Assembly (NCBI RefSeq): GCF_038561955.2
Contig: NZ_CP138333.2
Coordinates: 806,001 to 870,000 of the forward strand
Source: Salinicoccus sp. Bachu38
Lineage (GTDB): Bacteria > Bacillota > Bacilli > Staphylococcales > Salinicoccaceae
DNA: 64,000 nucleotides
Direction: 5' to 3'
The notes below the pieces were generated by a model, which made no database searches, was not told the origin of the DNA, and saw only the letters and a program-made list of their open reading frames with translations. How positions within the stretch are numbered: position 1 is the stretch's first letter; each line of letters starts with the position of its first letter. Of this stretch, positions 1,612 to 13,037 are shown piece after piece. Made by a program: the position numbers and the translations under genes.

Positions 1612-2790
1612 TTATGAAGAATGAAGATATTCAAGCCATAGACTCTCCATCCTCTCTTTACCCGATGTAAGACCTGAATGGAAGCGTACCTTTGCATTTT
1701 GTCTTTCATCATTGATTTTTCTGAGAACCGCTTCGGAACCATCGCTGTCATCCTGGATCTGTAAAGCTGCAAGTTTTCCCTGCAGTATGGCAATTTTTGC
1801 ATTCTCAATCCCGGTGATGTTGCCGGCGACAAACAAGTTTTCTATTTCAGTTTCCATATATCTGCTGTGAAGCGGAACATACCCGCCAAGAGATTCGATG
1901 TATACATGTTTCATATTCAAAAGAGAACATATTTCACTCAATGGAGCAAGTCCATCGGATATACAGACGAAGTCACAAAGTATTTCTTTTTCAGTACCTT
2001 CAATAGGTTTGCCTTCATTATTCGTTTTCTGTACGGTGACGGATTCCACCTTGTCTCTCCCATTGATGCGTATCACCTGTTCTTTAATGGAAAGGGGCAA
2101 CCCCATGGCTTTGACCCCACGCTTTGGAAAGAGTTTAAGAATGCCTTTTTGGATTTTAGGAAGGCGATCTAAGGTACGGCTGCCATATGAAATCACTTTT
2201 GAAGGGGCAAGCCCACCAAGTGACACCAGTGTTTCAAGTGCCTGGTGCGGTTTCTGATTGTTGATGGTATTACAGGGAGGCATACATATTTTTTTAATTG
2301 GTATATCGGCATACCCAAGTTCAAGACCGATGACCATGGATAAGGGGTTGATACCGATGATGACGCCGTACTCTCCCGGACTTACACGCTGAAAATTGGT
2401 CAGTACCTGAGCTGCGCCGACCGTCATTACGCCAGGGAGATCCCATCCCGGCAGTGGTGTGGACTTCTCCCGTGCTCCGGTGGCAACAATCAGGTTATGG
2501 GATATGAAAATACCGTCTGTGGTGTAGATGGTGAAGTGTGCGTCTTTCTCAATATTGATGACCGATGTGTTGAACTTCAGCTGAACGTTGTCCTCAATAT
2601 CCCTCAGCATCTGTTCTGCGATTTCCAAGCCGTTCCACCATTCTCCTTTGCCTTCTTCATACAACTGTCCAAGGAGCCTGCCGCCTCCTTGAAAATATTC
2701 ATCGATGACCATTACATTTTGTGTATCCTTCAGGACATTGGCTGCGCTGAGACCGGCAGGGCCTGCTCCAACGATGATTGTATCAAGCAT
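1612..2790 (-). CDS. FAD-dependent amine/imino-acid dehydrogenase, alpha (HcnB/OoxA-like) subunit
   Basis: Pyridine-nucleotide-disulfide-type flavoprotein of 392 residues. The N-terminal Rossmann motif VGAGPAGLSAA binds FAD; a second motif region follows around VIIGINPLS, and a GNITGIENA motif lies near the end. The sequence resembles HcnB and opine/proline dehydrogenase alpha subunits. These pass electrons from a partner flavoprotein through Fe-S centres. The usual C-terminal BFD-like Fe-S domain of HcnB is missing here and is encoded separately at 3108-3383. It is the last gene of a three-gene operon; its ATG overlaps the stop of the 2Fe-2S gene by 8 bases. The partner is most likely the DadA-like subunit at 4934-6112. 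A D-hydroxyproline or proline substrate is inferred from context. Confidence 0.85.
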   Translation of the reverse strand: MLDTIIVGAGPAGLSAANVLKDTQNVMVIDEYFQGGGRLLGQLYEEGKGEWWNGLEIAEQMLRDIEDNVQLKFNTSVINIEKDAHFTIYTTDGIFISHNLIVATGAREKSTPLPGWDLPGVMTVGAAQVLTNFQRVSPGEYGVIIGINPLSMVIGLELGYADIPIKKICMPPCNTINNQKPHQALETLVSLGGLAPSKVISYGSRTLDRLPKIQKGILKLFPKRGVKAMGLPLSIKEQVIRINGRDKVESVTVQKTNNEGKPIEGTEKEILCDFVCISDGLAPLSEICSLLNMKHVYIESLGGYVPLHSRYMETEIENLFVAGNITGIENAKIAILQGKLAALQIQDDSDGSEAVLRKINDERQNAKVRFHSGLTSGKERMESLWLEYLHSS

Positions 2791-3115
2791 CTGCCCTACC
2801 CCTTTCCGTTAGATGGGAGAGAGCATCCTGCGCTTCTATTCTCATGTTCTCATCCAGCGTATTGAGGCATGCGCGTTGATTTCTCCTCCCATTGATTGTC
2901 ACCCGGCATTCCGAACAATGGCCGATATTGCAATATAACCCTCTTGGCCTGCCGTCCTTCTCATGGTTACGGAGAGTCCGGATGTCGTTGGCAAGCAGGG
3001 CGGCGGAGATGCTTTCCCCCCTGTGTCCATGCAGTTCCCGGCCATTCCAAAAAAATGGGACCAGTTCAGTCTCCATAGAACCGAGGATCTTATGATGAAT
3101 GATGCGTCTAGTCAT
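2783..3115 (-). CDS. 2Fe-2S ferredoxin-like gamma subunit (HcnA-like)
   Basis: A 110-residue plant-type [2Fe-2S] protein. The cysteine ligands lie in LYCNIGHCSECRVTINGRR and then ACLN (pattern C-x4-C-x2-C...C), as in HcnA and the small subunits of heteromeric proline or opine dehydrogenases. An ATG at 3115 is preceded by AAGGAGG at 6 bases, so the longer frame to 3142 is not used. Its start overlaps the end of the BFD-type gene and its stop overlaps the alpha-subunit start, which implies translational coupling and fixed stoichiometry. It probably shuttles electrons between the two flavin subunits. Confidence 0.85.
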   Translation of the reverse strand: MTRRIIHHKILGSMETELVPFFWNGRELHGHRGESISAALLANDIRTLRNHEKDGRPRGLYCNIGHCSECRVTINGRRNQRACLNTLDENMRIEAQDALSHLTERGRADA

Positions 3116-3383
3116 GGGCGTCCTCCTTAATGAAATCTTCAATGGAAACTGTACGGATTGGAGGCTGGGCCTTTAAATTGATATAAGTTGGTGCCTCTTC
3201 ATGGTCCTGGGTCAGTGCTTCTATAAATGGTCCACACGTCCTGGATGCGCAAAAGCCCATGCCAGCCCTCGATTTAAGCTTCAATTCCCGCGCATTATCA
3301 GCACCTTGTCTTAGTATTTCATCTATTTCAGACATATAAATATTTTCACAGCGGCAAATGATAAAATCTTCTTGTTTTTTCAT
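3108..3383 (-). CDS. BFD-like [2Fe-2S] binding protein, delta subunit
   Basis: A 91-residue protein with a BFD-type cluster motif: CRCENIYMSEI near the N terminus and GFCASRTCG further on (C-x-C ... C-x4-C). In HcnB and related oxidoreductases this module is fused to the C terminus of the FAD subunit; here it is a free gene, first in the operon. Two in-frame ATGs exist. The second (3383) stands about 8 bases from an AAAGGGGG site and is preferred over the one at 3389. A sigma-54-like promoter lies 36 bases upstream. Confidence 0.8.
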   Translation of the reverse strand: MKKQEDFIICRCENIYMSEIDEILRQGADNARELKLKSRAGMGFCASRTCGPFIEALTQDHEEAPTYINLKAQPPIRTVSIEDFIKEDAHD

Positions 3384-3418
3384 TTCCATTCCCCCTTTTC
3401 TACGTATGAAGAATCTAA

Positions 3419-3433
3419 GAAATATTCATGCCA
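3419..3433 (-). promoter_or_regulatory. Sigma-54-like promoter of the Fe-S/FAD operon
   Basis: On the minus strand this reads TGGCATGAATATTTC: a classical -24 TGGCA, correct spacing, and TTTC in place of the usual TTGC at -12. It begins one base past the stop of the activator gene. The same arrangement recurs at 4889-4903 and 11468-11482. This is pattern recognition; no start site has been mapped. Confidence 0.7.
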
Positions 3434-3434
3434 G

Positions 3435-4799
3435 CTACAGCTGGTATTTTTTGATCTTCGCATATAGTGTCGGACGGCTGATGCCGAGAACTTTTGAGGC
3501 CTGGTCAATGTTATTGTGCTTTTCAAGTGTACGCCTTAAATAATCCGCCTCAGTCTGGTCGATAAAATCCTTTAGTCTGACCTCCTCCTGTGGCAATTGT
3601 GGATAGAGGATGGGGGCTTCTTCGCCAACTTCTTCAAGATATTGGGTGAAGATTCCCCCATTCAGCTTTGTGTCATTGGAGAAGATGACCAGCCGTTCGA
3701 CGACATTGATAAGCTCCCTAACATTGCCTGGCCAATGATAGGTCTTCATACGTTGAAGTAGTTCCTGGTCTGCATATCGCATTTCGATGCCATATTTTTC
3801 AGAGATGCTGTATAGATAGTAGAAGAATAGTGATTCGATATCATCCGGACGTTTTCTGAGAGGGGGTATGTGAATGTTGACGACGTTGATCCGATAGAGT
3901 AGGTCAGATCTGAAGTCGCCGCCACTGAGCAGGTCCGATATCTTTTTGTTGGTAGCAGAAACGAGCCTGAAGTCTGCGTTCATCTCTTTGGTTCCTCCCA
4001 ATTTAAAATACTGCTTCTCCTGAAGCACCCTCAGAAATTTCACCTGCATATCTATCGGCATTTCACCGATTTCATCGAGGAACAGTGTTCCCCCTTGAGC
4101 GAGTTCAATTTTTCCTTTATTCCCCTGACGATTTGCTCCTGTAAAGGCACCTTTTTCGTAACCGAACAATTCTGATTCGAAAAGATGACCCGGGATGGCT
4201 CCGCAATTGATTGGTATGAATTCCTTATCCTTATTGCTCAAATTATGAATGGATCGTGCAAATAACTCTTTTCCAACTCCTGTTTCACCTGTAATCAATA
4301 TGTTGGCCTGTGTGTTGGCGGCTTTCTGTATCTGGGCTTTGACACTTTCGATTGCTGAACTTTTATAGATTATGCCCCTGAAGCTCTCATCGTTATTCAG
4401 CTGTCGTACATTTGTTGACAGTGTCTGGACCTGCCCTTGAAGTTTCTTTATTTCCTCTTTCTGCTTGACCTCTTCCGTGACGTTCACTTCAGAAACAATT
4501 GCGCCTTCCACTTTACCCTCGATGATGATGGGAATCGATTTTATGTTTACGTATACGTTTGGCGTAGCCAAGTGCATCTTTTTTTCAATGGTCCTATTCT
4601 CCCTCAACGATTTCAGCATAACGAGCTTATCCTTTTGGAAGACTTCCGTAATCGGGCGTCCAATTACATCCTTTTGTGCAAGATCGAATATTTCTTCGGC
4701 ACGTTTACTGAAATGTATAATCCTTTCTTCCTTATCGATGATGGTGAATGAGTGGTTATGGAAATTGATCAACTCTTCAATCAGAAATTTTTCAAACAC
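3435..4799 (-). CDS. Sigma-54-dependent transcriptional activator (PAS, AAA+, Fis-type HTH)
   Basis: Enhancer-binding protein of 454 residues. An N-terminal PAS sensor (about 10-115) is followed by a short coiled linker. The AAA+ domain (about 140-370) has Walker A GETGVGKE, the sigma-54 contact loop GAFTGA intact in YEKGAFTGA, and Walker B TLFLDEIGE. A C-terminal Fis-type helix-turn-helix ends the protein (DQASKVLGISRPTLYAKIKKY). Such proteins hydrolyse ATP to open sigma-54 polymerase complexes, and an intact GAFTGA loop indicates sigma-54 is really used. It resembles PrdR/RocR-type activators of proline and arginine catabolism. It is divergent from the catabolic operon and directly upstream of the Fe-S operon; a shared 13-mer at 4814-4826 could be its site. 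The signal sensed by PAS is unknown. Confidence 0.92.
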   Translation of the reverse strand: MFEKFLIEELINFHNHSFTIIDKEERIIHFSKRAEEIFDLAQKDVIGRPITEVFQKDKLVMLKSLRENRTIEKKMHLATPNVYVNIKSIPIIIEGKVEGAIVSEVNVTEEVKQKEEIKKLQGQVQTLSTNVRQLNNDESFRGIIYKSSAIESVKAQIQKAANTQANILITGETGVGKELFARSIHNLSNKDKEFIPINCGAIPGHLFESELFGYEKGAFTGANRQGNKGKIELAQGGTLFLDEIGEMPIDMQVKFLRVLQEKQYFKLGGTKEMNADFRLVSATNKKISDLLSGGDFRSDLLYRINVVNIHIPPLRKRPDDIESLFFYYLYSISEKYGIEMRYADQELLQRMKTYHWPGNVRELINVVERLVIFSNDTKLNGGIFTQYLEEVGEEAPILYPQLPQEEVRLKDFIDQTEADYLRRTLEKHNNIDQASKVLGISRPTLYAKIKKYQL

Positions 4800-4888: not shown

Positions 4889-4903
4889 TGGCATGTTTAT
4901 TTC
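4889..4903 (+). promoter_or_regulatory. Sigma-54-like promoter of the catabolic operon
   Basis: TGGCATGTTTATTTC, followed by TTT, gives a -24 TGGCATG and a -12 TTTC with standard 15-base geometry. A start of transcription near 4915 would leave a short leader before the AGGGGAGGAAAG ribosome site and ATG at 4934. Two near-identical motifs occur in this locus. Confidence 0.7.
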
Positions 4904-4933
4904 TTTACTGCAGTAAGAGGGGAGGAAAGTGAT

Positions 4934-6112
4934 ATGAACCATGCAGTATATGATGTGGTGATTGCCGGGGGCGGTATTATTGGTACGAGCATCGCCTACT
5001 ATGCATCAAAGCAGGGAATGAAGGTTGCGATACTTGAAAGCAGTACGCTTGCCTCCGGCACATCATCAAAATGCGATGGCAATGTACTGCTGATCGACAA
5101 GGAGCCCGGGTTCGACAGCCGCATGGCCATCAAGAGCCAGGCTTTGATCGATGATCTACCCAACATGCTGGAGATGCCATTCGAATATCGTCAGCCCGGC
5201 AGCATATTCCTGTGCGAAAATGAAGCAGAACTCGAGCAGGCCTATCAATGGGTGGATTACCATAACCAAGAAAATGGAGGCAGGCCGCTCTTCAGAAAGT
5301 TGACGAAAGCGGATTTGAAGAATGATTCAAAATATTTTTCGGATCATCTGGTCGGGGGCATTGAATGCACGAATGATGCGACACTTAATCCCTATATGCT
5401 GACATTCTCTTTTGCCCACCAGGCAGAAAGGTATGGATGTGAAGTCTATGAACATACACCCGTCACGGGCATTGAAAAATTGGACACTGGGTTTAACGTC
5501 CATTCTCATGAAAAACAATTCAGGGCGGAGAGGGTTGTTAATGCTGCAGGTGTCTTTGCGCCAGCAATCGGGGAGAAGCTGGGAGTGGATGTTCCGATAA
5601 AACCAAGAAAGGGACATATTCTTGTCTCTTCCCGAACAGAATTGATGGGGACGAGAAAAATCCAGGAGTTCGGATATCTCATGACAAAGTTTGGCAGGGA
5701 GAGGGTGGCTGATGAAGAAATGAACACCTACGGTATTGCTCTGGTTCATGAAGCAACGGAGAGCCAGAACTTCCTGCTTGGAAGCAGCAGGGAATTCGTC
5801 GGGTACGATAATAAGGTGAATCATAAGATTGTACAGCTGATTGCAAAAAGAGCCATCCACTTCTTTCCTGAGATGAAGGACATGTCCCTGATCCGCAGTT
5901 ACGCCGGACTCAGACCGTGGACGCCCGATCATCTCCCTATAATATCGGAAACCAACGTCAGCGGTTTTTATGTAGCTGCGGGTCACGAAGGGGATGGCAT
6001 TGGGCTGTGTGCAATTACAGGAAAATGGATGGCGGAAATGCTGGCGGATAATCTGAAGGAGGACCTGACTCCCCTCAGCATCGGAAGGTTCAAGGAAGGG
6101 GTGCACTCATGA
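4934..6112 (+). CDS. DadA-type FAD-dependent oxidoreductase, beta (HcnC-like) subunit
   Basis: A 392-residue D-amino-acid-dehydrogenase-like flavoprotein. The FAD motif VVIAGGGIIGTSIAYYASKQG stands at residues 7-27, and the conserved C-terminal GLRPWTPDHLPIIS and AAGHEGDGIGLC segments are typical of the DAO fold. It probably oxidises the imino acid D-4-hydroxyproline to pyrroline-4-hydroxy-2-carboxylate. Electrons would pass to the 2Fe-2S, BFD and FAD subunits of the divergent operon. It heads the plus-strand operon, and its stop overlaps the epimerase start as ATGA. Sarcosine or D-proline remain possible substrates. Confidence 0.88.
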   Translation: MNHAVYDVVIAGGGIIGTSIAYYASKQGMKVAILESSTLASGTSSKCDGNVLLIDKEPGFDSRMAIKSQALIDDLPNMLEMPFEYRQPGSIFLCENEAELEQAYQWVDYHNQENGGRPLFRKLTKADLKNDSKYFSDHLVGGIECTNDATLNPYMLTFSFAHQAERYGCEVYEHTPVTGIEKLDTGFNVHSHEKQFRAERVVNAAGVFAPAIGEKLGVDVPIKPRKGHILVSSRTELMGTRKIQEFGYLMTKFGRERVADEEMNTYGIALVHEATESQNFLLGSSREFVGYDNKVNHKIVQLIAKRAIHFFPEMKDMSLIRSYAGLRPWTPDHLPIISETNVSGFYVAAGHEGDGIGLCAITGKWMAEMLADNLKEDLTPLSIGRFKEGVHS

Positions 6113-7125
6113 TAAACAGCAAACAGTTCATCACCATCGATACCCACACCGGCGGTAATCCGACACGGACAGTCGTGGCAGGCATGCCTGCACTGAAAGG
6201 AGAAACGATCCAGGAGAAGATGATAGATATGAAAGAGAATCATGACCACATCCGCAAGTTCCTGGTCAACCCTCCCAGGGGACATGATGTGATGAGCGGA
6301 ACCATCCTGCTCCCCGCGCTTGATCCAAAGGCGGATTTCAGTGTCATCTTCATTGAGACGGGTGGTTATCTGCCAATGTGTGGCCACGACACCATCGGCA
6401 CATGTACGGCGCTTGTCGAGCTCGGATATATAGAACGACAGGAACCTGTGACAAATGTCGTACTGGATACGCCGGCAGGCATCGTCGAGGCCGAATGCAA
6501 GGTGGTGGATGGGAAGGTCGAAGCGGTCAGCTTCATCAGTACCGATTCCTTCCATCTGAAGACGGTTCATGTGGATTATGATGGGTTGGAGGATATACGG
6601 TGTGACATTGCGTATGGCGGAAACTTCTATGGCATCATCAAGGCTTCGGATATAGGGCTCTCGCTGGAAGTCGGAAAATCCGAAGAACTCGTCATGAAAG
6701 CGATGGAAATTCGGGACATCATAAATGAAACATACGAAGTCAGACACCCATCCTATCCATTCATCGACAAATTGACTCATATGGAGCTTTATGAGGATGG
6801 TGATCCTGTAAAAAATACAGTCATAGTGCCTCCAGGCGGTATCGACCGTTCACCCTGCGGTACCGGCACTTGTGCGAAAGCAGCCACCTTGCATCATCTG
6901 GATCGTATGGAGGTGGGAGAGGGCATTGTCCATGAAAGCATCACTGGTTCGCAATTTACCGCAAAAATACTATCAGAGGAATCCTCAGGGGAGGCCACTT
7001 ATCTGAAAGTGTTGATCACCGGCTCTGCATGGCTCATGGGACGTCATGACTTCTATATGAATGAAGACGATCCGCTCAGTCAAGGGTATCTTTTGATTCC
7101 TGAACTCCAGGAGGTGGTTGAATGA
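6109..7125 (+). CDS. 4-hydroxyproline 2-epimerase (proline racemase family)
   Basis: Proline-racemase-fold enzyme of 338 residues. Both catalytic cysteines are present: MCGHDTIG near residue 90 and SPCGTGTC near residue 245. The Cys/Cys pair fits the epimerase/racemase group; trans-3-hydroxyproline dehydratases carry Thr at the second site. HTGGNPTRTV at the N terminus is the family signature. It would invert trans-4-hydroxy-L-proline to cis-4-hydroxy-D-proline for the dehydrogenase encoded just upstream. It is coupled on both sides by 4-base ATGA overlaps. Proline racemase activity cannot be excluded from sequence alone. Confidence 0.88.
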   Translation: MINSKQFITIDTHTGGNPTRTVVAGMPALKGETIQEKMIDMKENHDHIRKFLVNPPRGHDVMSGTILLPALDPKADFSVIFIETGGYLPMCGHDTIGTCTALVELGYIERQEPVTNVVLDTPAGIVEAECKVVDGKVEAVSFISTDSFHLKTVHVDYDGLEDIRCDIAYGGNFYGIIKASDIGLSLEVGKSEELVMKAMEIRDIINETYEVRHPSYPFIDKLTHMELYEDGDPVKNTVIVPPGGIDRSPCGTGTCAKAATLHHLDRMEVGEGIVHESITGSQFTAKILSEESSGEATYLKVLITGSAWLMGRHDFYMNEDDPLSQGYLLIPELQEVVE

Positions 7126-7865
7126 TAAGAAAAGTGGTGAACAGCTATGATGTGCATGTTCATGGACAACTGATACGCATGGTGCAGGGGAATGAAGTCA
7201 GATGCACAGCGGGTGATTACGATATGGAGAAGCTTCTGCTCAACGAACCGCGTGGCAGCAAGTATATGAATCTATTGGTTTATGATATTGAAAAAGAGAA
7301 GCTGCACGTAACGGTCAAGACCCATTTTCAAGTCCACAACTGTGAAATCCTGCTTAAGGGACTCGTTAACACTTTGATCGAACGCGGCGGGTTGCCATAC
7401 AGGGATACTTACGAGGTGATATATGACGAAGAAAATATTATATTGAGCCGGAATCATCTGAATATCTCCGACCTGTCACATGTTGATGGGTGGAAGGGGG
7501 CGTATGCGGTCGATGGCAGGATGATCGGGCTGCTTGAAACGGAAGTGGTACTATCGATAGAGAATATATCTGAAATCAAAAGGCGGCTCACAGCACAAAA
7601 TGATTGGGATTACACTGTATATCTTAATGGAAGCAGCCAGGTAGTGATTGATGGGGATGGAGAAATGGTCGCCCACCCAGTACATGAAGTGCTGTCAGTT
7701 TTACATGAACAGAACAGGTGGGGGTCCATCAGACATTTTAATGGAGCAAAAGTGGATATTGACGCTTTTGAAAGAGAGTATGGTCATCCATTCCACTTCA
7801 TTTCAAATTCGCAATTCTACATTGACGATACGGATATATATACAGAGGGATTCATCATCAAATAA
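7122..7865 (+). CDS. Degenerate proline racemase/epimerase paralogue
   Basis: A 247-residue protein not obviously catalytic. Its first 110 residues align with the upstream epimerase. YDVHVHGQLIRMV matches the HTGGNPTRTV region, LLLNEPRGSKYM matches the FLVNPPRGHDVM region, and HNCEILLKGLVNTLIERG matches the MCGHDTIGTCTALVELG region with the Cys in register. The His of MCGH is lost, and the second catalytic motif (PCGTGTC) and about 90 residues are missing. It is translationally coupled (ATGA) to the active epimerase, so it may be a partner or regulatory subunit, or a dedicated sensor. I know of no named family member of this kind; function is open. Confidence 0.7.
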   Translation: MIRKVVNSYDVHVHGQLIRMVQGNEVRCTAGDYDMEKLLLNEPRGSKYMNLLVYDIEKEKLHVTVKTHFQVHNCEILLKGLVNTLIERGGLPYRDTYEVIYDEENIILSRNHLNISDLSHVDGWKGAYAVDGRMIGLLETEVVLSIENISEIKRRLTAQNDWDYTVYLNGSSQVVIDGDGEMVAHPVHEVLSVLHEQNRWGSIRHFNGAKVDIDAFEREYGHPFHFISNSQFYIDDTDIYTEGFIIK

Positions 7866-7882: not shown

Positions 7883-9304
7883 ATGACAAAGGAGAGAAAA
7901 CTTCCGAGCGGGAAGATACTCGCGTTCATTCTCGTGATGTTCGTTGTCATCATGTTCTCGTTCATACTGCTGTTGGAACTGCCGATTCAACTTGCACTGC
8001 TTACAATCTGGTTCATGATTATGGGGGTCGGCCTTTATCTGGGCAACTCATACTTCCACATGGAGAAAGGTATTCTGAAAGGGATCTATGAAGGGATGGG
8101 GGCCATTCTGATACTTATTGCAGTCGGTGCCCTGATCGGGACATGGATTGCCGGGGGAGTCGTTCCTACCCTGATATATTATGGGTTGAATATCATCAGT
8201 CCGAGCATCTTCCTTATGGCGGCGATGATCATCTGCGCAATCACAGCATTGTCGACGGGAACTTCCTTCGGGTCGGCCGGTACAGCAGGCATCGCAATGA
8301 TGGGCATCGGTGAAAGTTTTGGACTGCCGATCTACCTTGTTGCCGGAGCGGTGATTTCAGGGTGCTATGTTGGGGACAAAATGTCTCCGCTGTCGGATAC
8401 GACAGTGATGACAGCCTCGTTGTCAAAAGTGGACCTGTTCCGTCACATCAAGTCCATGTCCTATGTATCGCTTCCGGCGTTTATAATAGCGGCAATACTA
8501 TACTGGATTGTCGGTGCGGTGCTATATAGTGGAAGCGGAGATCTTTCCATTGCTGAAGAGACGATGACGGGACTTGCAAGCACTTTCAATATCTCCTGGG
8601 TGATGCTGATTCCAGCAGCCATTGTTATTGCACTGCTTGTCATGAGGATGCCCTCGGTACCGGTCATCCTGTTTGGAGCATTGCTTGGCAGTCTGTGGGC
8701 AACATGGTTCCAGGGCTACGGTTTCATCGAAGCAATCCAGGCACTTTATTCCGGCAGCAGCCTTTCGACCGGCATCGCCTTCATCGACAACCTGCTCAAC
8801 CGCGGAGGAATTACTTTCATGCTTGAAGTCATCCTGCTGATTATTCTTGCTTTGGGTGTCGGAGGGCTCCTGCAGGCAATCGGAGCGCTGGAAGTCATTG
8901 GGAATATATTCGCCAACTGGGCGACAAATACCGGCAATGTAACATTGACGACGATGCTTGCAGCTTTCTTCGGTGTATTCTTTGGTGGTGCAGCATACGT
9001 TTCCCTGCTCACTGGTACAAAGATTACCGAAGAAAACTACGACCGCCTCAATCTGGACCGGTCACTGCTATCGAGAAATACGGAAGCCGGTGGGACAGTG
9101 ACCACACCGATGGTGCCATGGTCTGATGGAGGCGTGTTCATGGCTGCAACGCTGGGTGTATCCACATTGGCGTATCTTCCATTCTTCTGGTATGGGTTCC
9201 TCGTCATAATCATCACTCTGATCTACGGCTACACAGGCAAATTCATTTTAGGCAAGGAAAAAACTAAAACAGAAAAGGAGAATATAAATGAACAAACAGC
9301 TTAA
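7883..9304 (+). CDS. NhaC-family Na+/H+ antiporter-like carrier
   Basis: Integral membrane protein of 473 residues with about 11-12 hydrophobic helices, belonging to the NhaC family that includes the malate/lactate antiporter MleN. GYCVGDKMSPLSDTTVM-like residues (SGCYVGDKMSPLSDTT, about 155-170) and TPMVPWSDGG near 410 are family hallmarks. Its place between catabolic genes, with its end overlapping the next start by 17 bases, suggests Na+-coupled uptake of hydroxyproline or proline, or exchange of a pathway product. Plain Na+/H+ exchange is the alternative. Confidence 0.85.
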   Translation: MTKERKLPSGKILAFILVMFVVIMFSFILLLELPIQLALLTIWFMIMGVGLYLGNSYFHMEKGILKGIYEGMGAILILIAVGALIGTWIAGGVVPTLIYYGLNIISPSIFLMAAMIICAITALSTGTSFGSAGTAGIAMMGIGESFGLPIYLVAGAVISGCYVGDKMSPLSDTTVMTASLSKVDLFRHIKSMSYVSLPAFIIAAILYWIVGAVLYSGSGDLSIAEETMTGLASTFNISWVMLIPAAIVIALLVMRMPSVPVILFGALLGSLWATWFQGYGFIEAIQALYSGSSLSTGIAFIDNLLNRGGITFMLEVILLIILALGVGGLLQAIGALEVIGNIFANWATNTGNVTLTTMLAAFFGVFFGGAAYVSLLTGTKITEENYDRLNLDRSLLSRNTEAGGTVTTPMVPWSDGGVFMAATLGVSTLAYLPFFWYGFLVIIITLIYGYTGKFILGKEKTKTEKENINEQTA

Positions 9305-10169
9305 AGGCGTCTTTCCAGTATTGATTACACCGATGAATGAGGACTTTTCCGTGAACTACGATGGGATGAAGGAAAATGTAAAATACTATTTGGATCAGGA
9401 AGTTTCCGGCATTGTCATTGTCGGCAGTACAGGGGAATTTGTATCATTGGATGATGAAGAAAAGATGAAGATCGTCGAAATGGTCAGCGGTATGGTCAAA
9501 GATACGGATACACAGCTGCTCGTCGGCATATCGGATGAACGTACGGATAAGGCACTGAAATTTGCAGCCCATGCAGAAGAACATCAGGCGGATGGCCTCC
9601 TGCTGATAAACTCGTACTATGGTGGACCGACCATGAATGAAATCTACCATCAGTTCAAGGACGTGAATGATCAAGTCTCGACCCCGGTAATGATCTACAA
9701 TAATCCGTTCACTTCAGGAGTCGATATTGAACTTGATACGCTATATAAAATCGACCAGACACTGGAGAATGTCAACTACATCAAGGAATCCAGTGGAGAG
9801 ATCAGGAAAGTTCGTGACATTGCCAGAAATTCCAATCTGACAATATTCTGTGGTTCTGACGATATGGCTCTCGAATCATTCCTGCATGGTGCCACCGGCT
9901 GGGTTTCTGTAGCAGGGAATATCGCCCCGAACAGTGCTTCCAAAATGCTTGAGCATGTAGAAGCGGGCAACTATAATAAAGCTAAAGAAATATATAAGGA
10001 TTTGTTGCCACTATGTGAGTTCCTTGAAAACTCAGGGAAATTTGTGCAGATTGTCAAAAAGGCAATGGATCTGAAAGGTCTGAGCGGAGGACCATCCAGA
10101 AAGCCAAGGCTTGGTCTATCAGATGAGGAGATAGAACAGTTGAAGGGCCATATGGAAAAGCTGAATTAG
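9288..10169 (+). CDS. DapA-family lyase, probable pyrroline-4-hydroxy-2-carboxylate deaminase
   Basis: TIM-barrel class I aldolase-type protein of 293 residues. The Schiff-base Lys stands in YIKESSG (about residue 165), the conserved Tyr in MIYNNP (about 137), and GSTGEF near residue 47 forms the carboxylate pocket. In hydroxyproline clusters the DapA-family member is the deaminase that converts the dehydrogenase product to 2-oxoglutarate semialdehyde, and this role fits the context. It is last in the plus-strand operon; only 11 bases separate it from the convergent sigma-54 gene, with no strong terminator seen. Confidence 0.85.
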   Translation: MNKQLKGVFPVLITPMNEDFSVNYDGMKENVKYYLDQEVSGIVIVGSTGEFVSLDDEEKMKIVEMVSGMVKDTDTQLLVGISDERTDKALKFAAHAEEHQADGLLLINSYYGGPTMNEIYHQFKDVNDQVSTPVMIYNNPFTSGVDIELDTLYKIDQTLENVNYIKESSGEIRKVRDIARNSNLTIFCGSDDMALESFLHGATGWVSVAGNIAPNSASKMLEHVEAGNYNKAKEIYKDLLPLCEFLENSGKFVQIVKKAMDLKGLSGGPSRKPRLGLSDEEIEQLKGHMEKLN

Positions 10170-10180
10170 AAAACGAGGCA

Positions 10181-11386
10181 CTACACCTCTTTCAGTTGGG
10201 AGAGTATTTCATTTTTATACTTGTTCACTGTACGTCGTGAAATATGGATATCATATTGTTTCAAATGCTCCGCAATCTTACTGTCGGAAACCGTTCTGAA
10301 GTTTTCAATCTGGCTGATCATGAATCTTACAAGGCTTGCTGAGGTGTTGCCTGTAACCTTCTTTGACAGTAGGGCCTTAATCGGCAGAGCGCCCCGCGGG
10401 GTGGCAATGTGCTTATCAGCAATCAGTCGGCTGATGGTGGCGGGGCTTAGCCCGGTCTGTTCTGCCAGTTCTGTCTGGTCCAGGGGGTTGAGGTACTCCT
10501 TTTCTTTGAGAAGGTATGCTTCCTGTACGTGAATGATGACAGAGAGAATTTGCTTCAGGTATAGTGTTCGTGCATTCAAGATGGAGACGAGCTCTTCATA
10601 TTCCTGCTTGTAACGTGCCATCCTGTCATTGAAATCAGAATCATCCGTCCGAAGACGGACAGGTTCAAATACAATACTATCCATCAGATAGTCAGAGATT
10701 TTTATTCTCAGAGTGCTGTTGGTTGTCGATTCAATGACGGCGTCCGGTTCTATGAACATGTTCACATCAGGCGTCAATGGCGATAGACTACAGCTTTTGA
10801 TGACAGTCATGTAGTCCAAAAACGTATCTTTTCCTACATGACCGTCATTAAGGAAGTCATATTGCTGTTGATGGATGTCATCAAGATGATTAAAAAATTG
10901 TGAAAAGAGCCCTTCATTATACTGGCCTCTAGTCTTGAGTTGGAATTCAATATATTCCTTTACGTCACAGCAACCGATCCCAAGGTTCTCATAGGACTTG
11001 AGTCTTTCAATATTTGTATTCACTACTTCTATAGGCACGTTGAGGAGTTTTGATACTTCAATTGAAAATGCTCCCAAAAAACCAGAGGGGTTCAGTGAAT
11101 GGAGCAGTGTCTGCATGATTTCCCTGTCCGGGCGCCCAAGAGAGCAATTGAAGTGCATGAGAAGTTCATCCATGATGGATGATTCCTGATTTGAATGATG
11201 GTGTGCCAGTACTTCCAAAGGCATTTTTTCTTCATCAATATAGATCAGGGGATTATCGTTGCATTGATCGTGTATGTATCTGACCAGCTCATAGTTATTG
11301 GATTTAAAGAGTTTTATGCCGTGATAAAGGTAGTGGTTGAGAGATAGAGACGTAGTATTGGTAATATGGTTTTCCAGTATAAGCAT
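10181..11386 (-). CDS. rpoN: RNA polymerase sigma-54 factor (RpoN/SigL), divergent
   Basis: A 401-residue sigma-54 protein. Region I is recognisable (SLSLNHYLYHGIKLFKS, then NPLIYIDEE). Core-binding segments align with B. subtilis SigL (IMQTLLHSLNPSGFL, LGIGCCDVKEYIEFQL, FIEPD). The -12 helix-turn-helix region reads TGLSPATISRLIADKHIATPRG. The RpoN box near the C terminus is SRRTVNKYK, against the consensus ARRTVAKYRE. The protein is shorter than usual (430-480), with little acidic region II. AGGGAGG lies 7 bases before the ATG. A sigma-54-like promoter at 11468-11482 points at the gene, implying autoregulation. It sits beside a sigma-54 activator and catabolic operon, so it is probably a locus-dedicated sigma. 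Confidence 0.93.
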   Translation of the reverse strand: MLILENHITNTTSLSLNHYLYHGIKLFKSNNYELVRYIHDQCNDNPLIYIDEEKMPLEVLAHHHSNQESSIMDELLMHFNCSLGRPDREIMQTLLHSLNPSGFLGAFSIEVSKLLNVPIEVVNTNIERLKSYENLGIGCCDVKEYIEFQLKTRGQYNEGLFSQFFNHLDDIHQQQYDFLNDGHVGKDTFLDYMTVIKSCSLSPLTPDVNMFIEPDAVIESTTNSTLRIKISDYLMDSIVFEPVRLRTDDSDFNDRMARYKQEYEELVSILNARTLYLKQILSVIIHVQEAYLLKEKEYLNPLDQTELAEQTGLSPATISRLIADKHIATPRGALPIKALLSKKVTGNTSASLVRFMISQIENFRTVSDSKIAEHLKQYDIHISRRTVNKYKNEILSQLKEV

Positions 11387-11442: not shown

Positions 11443-11467
11443 TCCAGAACATGCATATATTCATTAA

Positions 11468-11482
11468 GAAATTATTATGCCA
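11468..11482 (-). promoter_or_regulatory. Sigma-54-like promoter of the sigma-54 gene
   Basis: Minus strand TGGCATAATAATTTC, then TT: same -24 TGGCAT and same altered -12 TTTC as the other two sites in the locus. The start would fall near 11456, about 70 bases before the ATG at 11386. Confidence 0.65.
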
Positions 11483-11537: not shown

Positions 11538-13037
11538 ATGACAGATCTAAAGCCAACAGGAGAACTGAAACCGAGAGTAAAGGAATTCCTCGATCAGCTG
11601 GAAGGCTTCTTCATTGATGGGGAGTATGTCAAAAGCGCAAGCGGCAAGACATTTGATGTGGTCGATCCGGCAACAGAGGAAGTAATCGTGACGCTCAGTG
11701 AAGCACAGGAGGAGGATGTGGACCATGCGGTGGAAGCGGCGAGAAAGGCGTTTGACGAAGGGCCGTGGACGCGGATGGAAGCCGCGGAGCGGGAGCGTAT
11801 GATCTATAAGTTCGCAGACCTTCTGGAAGCACACCGTGAGGAGCTGGCACAGCTCGAGGCACTGGATAACGGGAAACCGTATCATGTCGCATTGGAGGAT
11901 GATGTCGACGGCACCGTCCAGCATTTCCGCTATTACGCCGGCTGGGCGACGAAGATATTCGGCAAGACGACGAATGTTTCTCCGGACTACGTCACCTACA
12001 CACTTCATGAACCGGTCGGTGTCGTGGGACAGATCATTCCATGGAACTTCCCACTTGCGATGGCAGGCTGGAAAATGGGGGCGGCACTGGCTGCCGGGTG
12101 TACAATCGTCATCAAGCCGGCAGCCGAAACACCGCTGTCGCTACTCTATATCGGCCAGCTGTTCAATGAAGCCGGGTTCCCTAAAGGCGTCGTCAACATC
12201 ATTGCCGGCTCCGGCAGTGTGGCGGGTGGTGCACTCAATGTGCATCCGAAAGTCGACAAGCTCGCGTTTACCGGGTCGACGAAGACAGGCAGTACCATCA
12301 TGAGGAATGCAGCGGACAATGTTACGGGTGTGACGCTAGAGCTCGGCGGCAAGTCCCCGAGCATCGTACTCGAGGATGCGGATCTTGAGAGCTCGCTCGA
12401 TGGCATTTTCGATGGCACGATGTATAATCACGGGCAGAACTGCAGTGCGACGACACGTGTATTCGTCCAGCGTCCGATATATGAAAAAGTCATAGAGGAA
12501 ATGAAGCGCAGGGCGGAAGCGGTGAAACTCGGTCCCGGCATCGAATCTTCGACCGACATGGGCCCGCTCGTTTCCAAAAAGCAGCTGGATACTGTCATGG
12601 GGTATATAGAAAAAGGGAAGGAAGAGAATGCACGGCTCATCACGGGCGGCAACCATACCGGTGATAAAGGCTATTTCGTCGAACCGACGATATTCGCTGA
12701 TGTGGAAGATGACATGACGATTGCGAAAGAGGAGATCTTCGGCCCCGTCATGTCGATCCTGCCATTCGATACCGTCGATGAAGTGATTGCACGTGCGAAT
12801 GCAAGCGAGTATGGCCTTGCCGCAAGCGTCTGGACGGAGAACATCCGTACCGGCCACTATATTTCCGGCAAGCTCGAGAGCGGCACCGTATGGATCAACG
12901 ACTTCGGCCTCGAGTGGGAAACAATGCCGTTCGGCGGCTACAAGAAGTCCGGTGTCGGCAGGGAGATGGGCGGCGACTATGGCATTTCCAACTATATCGA
13001 AGTGAAGAGCGTGTTTGTGAATATGAAACAGAAATGA
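11538..13037 (+). CDS. NAD(P)-dependent aldehyde dehydrogenase (DhaS-like)
   Basis: Aldehyde dehydrogenase superfamily member of 499 residues, full length. The catalytic Glu lies in ELGGKSPSIV and the catalytic Cys in GQNCSATTRV; the NAD-binding IIPWNFPL and FTGSTKTG motifs are intact. Closest in style to B. subtilis DhaS and staphylococcal AldA. It is divergent from the sigma-54 gene and so could be the 2-oxoglutarate-semialdehyde dehydrogenase needed to end the hydroxyproline route. No sigma-54-like motif was found on its strand, however, so it may be controlled separately. A bidirectional terminator follows. Confidence 0.88.
   Translation: MTDLKPTGELKPRVKEFLDQLEGFFIDGEYVKSASGKTFDVVDPATEEVIVTLSEAQEEDVDHAVEAARKAFDEGPWTRMEAAERERMIYKFADLLEAHREELAQLEALDNGKPYHVALEDDVDGTVQHFRYYAGWATKIFGKTTNVSPDYVTYTLHEPVGVVGQIIPWNFPLAMAGWKMGAALAAGCTIVIKPAAETPLSLLYIGQLFNEAGFPKGVVNIIAGSGSVAGGALNVHPKVDKLAFTGSTKTGSTIMRNAADNVTGVTLELGGKSPSIVLEDADLESSLDGIFDGTMYNHGQNCSATTRVFVQRPIYEKVIEEMKRRAEAVKLGPGIESSTDMGPLVSKKQLDTVMGYIEKGKEENARLITGGNHTGDKGYFVEPTIFADVEDDMTIAKEEIFGPVMSILPFDTVDEVIARANASEYGLAASVWTENIRTGHYISGKLESGTVWINDFGLEWETMPFGGYKKSGVGREMGGDYGISNYIEVKSVFVNMKQK

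Follow-up and report, generated by a model that had tools for sequence, protein, structure and literature searches.

A sigma-54 probably dedicated to a putative hydroxyproline locus, with an apparently rewritten −12 promoter element, in Salinicoccus and its relatives

Introduction

What does a sigma-54 serve in a genome where its gene lies at a single catabolic locus, and does it read the usual promoters there? The question is raised by an open reading frame in a 64,000-nt stretch of the Salinicoccus sp. Bachu38 chromosome (positions 806001–870000 of a single 2.618-Mb contig; hereafter the window, in whose own coordinates features are given). The GC of the −12 element belongs to the sigma-54 promoter consensus. 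How sigma-54 reads it is called a structural-biology problem in a paper from 2015 (PMC4496707), and later sigma-54 structures exist, judging by PDB titles. Sigma-54 paralogues with promoters of their own are already known (PMC3162934), as is RpoN in Salinicoccus (PMC4685198). Among the best-matching open-licence papers, we found no report of a sigma factor of the type described here, of TTTC promoters or of its presence beside SigL, and the words Salinicoccus, hydroxyproline and Staphylococc- are absent from the main text of a large comparison of sigma-54 regulons (PMC12316311). An initial annotation of the window suggested that, if this is a Staphylococcaceae chromosome, a complete sigma-54 system has been gained with, or kept for, one pathway; NCBI does place Salinicoccus in the Staphylococcaceae.

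Results

An intact, divergent sigma-54 at a putative hydroxyproline locus

The sigma factor gene and its surroundings comprise the following features (coordinates, strand, description).

1612–2790, −, FAD/NAD oxidoreductase (Pfam)
2783–3142, −, Fer2_4 [2Fe-2S] protein (Pfam)
3108–3389, −, BFD-like [2Fe-2S] protein (Pfam)
3417–3433, −, variant −24/−12 site TGGCATGAATATTTCTT, before the ferredoxin/oxidase (BFD/Fer2/oxidase) genes
3435–4799, −, PrdR-like PAS/AAA+/Fis-HTH sigma-54 activator with a GAFTGA loop (Pfam; PrdR 452 bits, cut-off 795)
4889–4905, +, variant −24/−12 site TGGCATGTTTATTTCTT, before the main catabolic (DAO) operon
4934–6112, +, FAD-dependent D-amino-acid oxidase/dehydrogenase family protein (DAO; Pfam)
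6109–7125, +, proline racemase/4-hydroxyproline epimerase family protein (Pfam, NCBIfam; below curated cut-offs)
7122–7865, +, fast-evolving 247-aa protein (hhalign to racemases 64%, E 6.5e-5)
7883–9304, +, NhaC-family transporter (Pfam; above the NCBIfam NhaC cut-off)
9288–10169, +, DHDPS-family lyase (Pfam; DapA 209.2, just past the cut-off of 206.15)
10181–11386, −, dedicated sigma-54, 401 aa (ORF call, Pfam, NCBIfam, AlphaFold2, PDB matches)
10439–10447, −, codons A316-P315-S314 (start of the −12-reading helix), equivalent to S379, E378 and H377 of Klebsiella pneumoniae sigma-54
11306–11308, −, codon F27 in region I, equivalent to K. pneumoniae L26 (pairwise alignment there weak by itself)
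11466–11482, −, variant −24/−12 site TGGCATAATAATTTCTT, 80 bp upstream of rpoN
11538–13037, +, aldehyde dehydrogenase (NCBIfam, no pathway-specific cut-off reached)

The reading frame of the sigma gene is intact and encodes a divergent sigma-54. Its identification as a SigL/RpoN-type protein is borne out by Pfam matches to Sigma54_DBD (E 1.9e-27) and Sigma54_CBD (E 1.4e-15), by the RpoN box SRRTVNKYK, by the alignment of residues 12–394 to the NCBIfam model TIGR02395 rpoN_sigma (E 1.6e-58) and by 31 PDB matches at E ≤0.001, all of them sigma-54 chains. As the TIGR02395 score (198.8 bits) lies below the curated cut-off of 277.35, the protein is a remote family member and not an equivalog by that model. 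The AlphaFold2 model (mean pLDDT 82.8, residues 1–14 below 50) contains a long helix (250–287), the −12-reading HTH (304–322) and the RpoN-box helix (384–398). The likeness had been thought to extend along the whole length; this holds for the core-binding and DNA-binding parts, whereas region I is present yet unusually divergent, with no match to the Pfam region I model (AID) at 1e-3, and the aligned segment carries replacements of the otherwise invariant L26 and the mostly conserved Q27.

The rpoN gene is indeed convergent with the catabolic operon, which ends at 10169. The activator had been described as lying beside rpoN; it is the only strong one in the genome, as detailed below, but the two genes are not adjacent, being ∼5.4 kb apart with the operon between them. 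The set of oxidase, racemase/epimerase, DHDPS-family lyase, transporter and aldehyde dehydrogenase is one that we take to fit hydroxyproline catabolism, and this gene content makes hydroxyproline the putative substrate, the epimerase and the aldehyde dehydrogenase reaching no NCBIfam cut-off and the DHDPS-family gene passing that of DapA. By context, the DHDPS-family gene is a candidate pyrroline-hydroxycarboxylate deaminase, and the aldehyde dehydrogenase is a candidate alpha-ketoglutaric semialdehyde dehydrogenase. No TTTC site directed at the latter was found in a scan of the window allowing up to two mismatches; at one other locus (L080) a relative with 55% identity is placed after the DHDPS-family gene and before rpoN. 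C91 and C250 of the racemase/epimerase are invariant among 13 relatives. The 247-aa protein encoded downstream, which matched nothing in Pfam or NCBIfam, carries an EPRG motif and is 33–46% identical to its counterparts outside genome G028; it is possibly a degenerate proline-racemase-like fold or partner.

One sigma-54 and one strong activator in the window genome, and their co-occurrence in relatives

Genome-wide, PF04552 matched a single protein, the RpoN of the window, so that no second rpoN was found. PF00158 gave one strong match (>150 bits), the activator of the window with 224.1 bits, and three others of 33–36 bits; matches of low score were also seen in 14 of 14 control genomes. The search thus revealed no other strong sigma-54 activator.

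The GTDB family examined appears to hold Salinicoccus, Jeotgalicoccus and Lacicoccus. Across its 33 genomes, rpoN is present in 19, including that of the window: in 8 of 12 Salinicoccus genomes, in 5 of 9 and 6 of 6 genomes of two other genera, and in none of the six genomes of three more. A strong activator was found in the same 19 genomes, and the remaining 14 lack both. In all 19, rpoN adjoins the same putative hydroxyproline locus, although in three draft genomes the activator is on a separate contig and it is the DHDPS-family gene that lies next to rpoN, and in two genomes ∼3 kb separate rpoN from the DHDPS-family gene. The single rpoN and strong activator of the window genome, their co-occurrence in 19 of 33 genomes and the unbroken linkage to one locus support the dedicated sigma-54 system that had been proposed.

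In the order as a whole, rpoN matches reach 80 bits or more in 22 of 157 genomes; at E ≤0.001 there are 28 matches, those beyond the 22 being short (20–24 bits). Outside the family, rpoN occurs within the order in three genomes (G077, G096 and G156) of one genus of family f4, presumably Staphylococcus. A plasmid search returned 207 records, every one below 60% identity. Since the wider set of loci comprised the best 80 of 397 found with one peptide pattern, other carriers of the module may have been missed.

Two loci, L093 (Oceanobacillus jeddahense) and L046 (G012), have two DHDPS-family matches near rpoN, ∼3–4 kb apart, a possible duplication or insertion. At another (L049:12868-13726, G025), the DHDPS-family gene was matched as two separate pieces, possibly because it is broken or through a sequencing error.

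The locus promoters carry TTTC in place of TTGC

The sites at the locus read TGGCAY-N5-TTTCTT, in which the −24 element is kept and the −12 element is TTTCTT where TTGC is usual. Those before the DAO and BFD genes recur across the loci of the family, and a third exact site, before rpoN, is present in only two of the 19 genomes (the window genome and G028), where it predicts possible autoregulation. To score position −13, we used a template neutral between G and T and a set of 40 DAO and BFD rows from 20 dedicated-sigma loci (those of the 19 family genomes plus that of O. oncorhynchi, but not the O. jeddahense locus). One row, the DAO gene of L065, was dropped as its upstream sequence reads N; several of the others are near-identical, and at 19 of the 27 comparison loci a BFD gene is not visible. 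In all 39 readable sites at dedicated-sigma loci, −13 is T, −12 is C and −11 is T, so that the GC of the canonical GG-N10-GC is replaced by TC throughout, and the −24 element and the sigma-54 spacing are present in each. At orthologous loci served by other sigma-54s (26 genomes and G077), −13 is G in 35 of 35 sites. The new −12 letters look constrained, being invariant while parts of the spacer vary.

Only exact, conserved sites carry weight here, since at up to two mismatches the window contains 15 sites against 13.0 expected, no excess over chance. Inspection by eye for enhancers of the TGT-N10-12-ACA type found none.

The regulon appears to comprise few promoters

A dedicated system was expected to have few promoters, and the counts agree: of 87 exact copies of the motif across the 33 genomes, 39 are in the loci, 31 lie outside them in the 19 genomes with rpoN and 17 are in the 14 without, compared with 74 occurrences of the reversed control pattern in the 33 genomes. 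Its frequency outside the locus is therefore about equal to that in rpoN-less genomes and below that of the control, with no excess. Most of the outside matches lie within coding sequence, including the single one in the window genome (L293) and all three outside-locus TTTCTT matches of O. jeddahense. A putative CstA-like gene carries an outside match in genomes both with and without rpoN.

In three of the 19 genomes (G016, G025 and G031), an outside site marks the beginning of one shared gene of the proline racemase family, whose best match in G025 and G031 is trans-3-hydroxyproline dehydratase, below its cut-off; for the G016 copy only a 208-aa ORF was seen. One G016 site (C1:754253) precedes an uncharacterised gene. 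These data support a regulon of few promoters that is not strictly confined to one locus in every species. At L272 in G016, a TTTC site is placed between an M24-peptidase-like gene and two look-alike tandem uncharacterised genes.

Orthologous loci and trees suggest a single switch

A class-wide search of 398 genomes with the activator matched 65 genomes outside the family, and the best 26, 19 of them from one family, were examined. Each of these 26 orthologous-locus genomes has one full rpoN (200–223 bits), and in all of them the −12 helix reads HEST[I/V]SR. In one (G490, family f6; L270) the sole rpoN, of ordinary appearance, is next to the orthologous locus; an aldehyde dehydrogenase gene stands between it and the activator, ∼8 kb away, and the locus promoters are TTGC; this arrangement may show the linkage as it was before the −12 switch.

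In the sigma tree, the 21 dedicated sigmas form a clade (100/100) on a long stem (1.57), with G077, itself on a long branch, as its sister (100/98) and ordinary SigL in other parts of the tree. Placement as the ordinary housekeeping SigL, which had been named as the outcome that would speak against a dedicated factor, is thus not what the tree gives, with due caution for long branches. The activator tree agrees on the clade (100/100, here with 16 rows) and on its sister (100/100), followed by family f6 (82/100). Taken together, the trees are most simply explained by a single −12 switch that came later than the divergence of the G077 line. Because the G-to-T change is thus most simply one event, the perfect correlation between sigma type and promoter letter does not amount to many independent tests.

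Two Oceanobacillus genomes, those of O. jeddahense and O. oncorhynchi, carry the module with TTTCTT sites at the locus and also encode a SigL-type sigma-54 with the helix HVSTISR. Both of their second sigmas nest within the family (group of 15, 97/94), but the activator tree groups O. oncorhynchi with different family members, though weakly supported (81/57). The gene trees thus indicate transfer of the module, in one direction or the other, between Oceanobacillus and the Salinicoccus/Jeotgalicoccus/Lacicoccus family. O. jeddahense has TTGC sites elsewhere, three of those retrieved lying near other activators; the strict pattern gave no TTGC site in O. oncorhynchi.

Replacements in the sigma factor and in the activator loop

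Comparing the 21 clade sigmas with 92 others, we found that the column of region I residue L26 holds F in 21/21 clade members and L in 92/92 others, and that K stands in the clade at the Q27 column, where 84/92 others have Q. In the −12-reading helix, the H377 column is S (S314) in 21/21 against H in 87/92, the E378 column is P (P315) in 20/21, the exception being A, against E in 72/92, and the S379 column is A (A316) in 21/21 against S in 90/92; two of the 92 others have S at 377, and two have A at 379. The S314 and A316 replacements sit at the start of helix 315–322 in the model. Other clade-specific replacements, such as K at an RpoN-box position that is R in 92/92 others, may be drift.

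Published work links these parts of the protein to the −12 element. The HTH is credited with −12 recognition in PMC3162934, where the −13 region appears in the title of the cited paper; a part in recognising the −12 GC is attributed to E378 and L25 (PMC4496707); and E378 and R383 are reported to crosslink to DNA, with L26 mapping near −12 (PMC5505868). E378P as the sole switch was rejected, as G077 has P at this position yet TTGC promoters, which makes H377S and S379A the better candidates within the helix. P at 378 also appears in Omnitrophota rows.

The activator loop reads GAFTGA in 20/20 clade activators that could be read and GAFSGA in 27/27 orthologues at TTGC loci. The threonine of GAFTGA contacts sigma-54 according to PMC2941729, which also cites a paper whose title has the motif sensing promoter DNA conformation. 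GAFSGA variants are said to stay active (PMC6615313), and the loop change is therefore perhaps incidental. The Clostridiales consensus in the same paper, TTGGCATNNNNNTTGCT, retains TTGC.

In five family genomes (L060–L064) a second activator-like gene adjoins an agmatinase-like gene. Its products were considered as users of the sigma factor and rejected: the loop is GAFMGA in two and lost in three, by which they are probably sigma-54-independent, and the only site matching at least 17/18 positions (L062:62) is kilobases away from the activator gene. The activator-like ORFs of L066–L068 had no match to the loop patterns.

Discussion

A proposed mechanism and its alternatives

We consider it quite likely that the sigma factor serves essentially one pathway, as part of a sigma/activator/promoter module with a rewritten −12 promoter. 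Polymerase with the dedicated sigma would wait at two promoters of the locus, perhaps three in the window genome. The PrdR-like activator, presumably in response to a hydroxyproline-related signal, would open them through ATP hydrolysis; in the window genome, the sigma gene may feed back onto itself. The promoter's −12 half would have changed from TTGC to TTTCTT in an ancestor of the version found in Salinicoccus, Jeotgalicoccus and Lacicoccus, and alongside it the sigma factor, in its −12-reading helix (H-x-S to S-P-A) and its region I (L26F), and the activator, in its loop (GAFSGA to GAFTGA). The result would be a promoter class that ordinary sigma-54 reads poorly and the dedicated sigma reads well, in a set able to pass as a whole from one genome to another. 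We infer from comparison, across one evolutionary switch, that the new specificity stems from the residue changes. The mobile module is probably orthogonal; the fuller reading, in which sigma, activator loop and promoter −13 changed together into a naturally orthogonal, horizontally moving module free of crosstalk with the host sigma-54, seems to us somewhat better than an even bet.

The sigma factor might instead be dedicated but of ordinary specificity, T at −13 being a tolerated variant and the promoter change the outcome of drift, or of fixation once the lineage had lost its other sigma-54 promoters. There was only one switch event, and the sigma is fast-evolving, with 42–50% identity to the window copy (74% in G028), compared with 56–88% for the activator, DAO, racemase, transporter and DHDPS proteins; both would suit this reading. 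It fits less well with three −12 letters that are each fixed in 39/39 sites while parts of the spacer vary, and with the same letters being kept in Oceanobacillus despite a SigL-type sigma-54, and we regard it as unlikely. A broader role, as a global or stress sigma-54 whose gene is merely located at the locus, could draw on the 2-fold rise of S. halodurans rpoN at 42°C, for which a heat-stress role was proposed (PMC4685198). The single strong activator of the genome, the absence of any motif excess outside the loci (31 in 19 genomes with rpoN, 17 in 14 without, 74 for the reversed control in 33) and the locus linkage in 19/19 family genomes and two Oceanobacillus make this highly improbable, and our data argue against Salinicoccus RpoN as a general stress regulator. 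Slightly less probable still is that the TTTC sites are no sigma-54 promoters, the genes being read by sigma-A and the sigma being a decaying remnant. Patchy presence (19/33) would fit decay; against this, all 21 clade sigmas are open frames retaining the invariant residues of the sigma-54 family, the GAFTGA loop is kept in 20/20 activators, sigma-54 spacing and the −24 element in 39/39 sites, and sigma and activator are jointly present or absent in 33/33 genomes.

Relation to known sigma-54 systems

The module with the rewritten −12 element shares with SigL/RpoN of Bacilli and its PrdR-type activator the domain order, the −24 element, a GAFTGA-type AAA+ activator and the orthologous locus (26 genomes), and proline racemase is among the genes reported to be sigma-54-controlled in Bacilli (PMC12316311). 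It differs in its linkage to one locus, in the divergent region I and −12-reading helix, and in TTTC for TTGC. Sigma-54 copies with their own activator and gene set are also described for Rhodobacter/Cereibacter sphaeroides (RpoN1–4) and Bradyrhizobium japonicum: R. sphaeroides rpoN2 lies within the fla1 locus (PMC7277832), RpoN3 is tied to AprX (PMC11999139), and distinct promoter classes are reported, with differences at −11 for R. sphaeroides and at −12 for B. japonicum (PMC3162934). Here, by contrast, the change is from G to T at −13, the sigma is often the genome's only one, and the module occurs in another family too. Lactobacillus plantarum and Chlamydia trachomatis have single-activator sigma-54 systems, like the present one in this respect, for which the account in PMC3162934 mentions no rewriting of the −12 element.

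What sets the module apart is a promoter letter that looks rewritten, matched by replacements in both of the proteins that work with it. Oceanobacillus is a genus in which the old and new sigma-54 forms coexist, and the comparison yields candidate residues for reading the −12 element, as well as a promoter system that depends on its activator and may be orthogonal.

The linked sigma-54s of family f4 resemble the module in that rpoN and the activator are neighbours of a single pathway, at a homologous hydroxyproline-type locus in G077 and at an agmatine-type locus in G096 and G156, but differ in their TTGC promoters and in a helix reading HPST, NVST or SVST. At L078 and L079, in two f4 genomes, a different rpoN and activator stand beside an agmatine-deiminase-type locus with TTGC sites, the names agmatinase, agmatine deiminase and M24 prolidase used here being given by eye.
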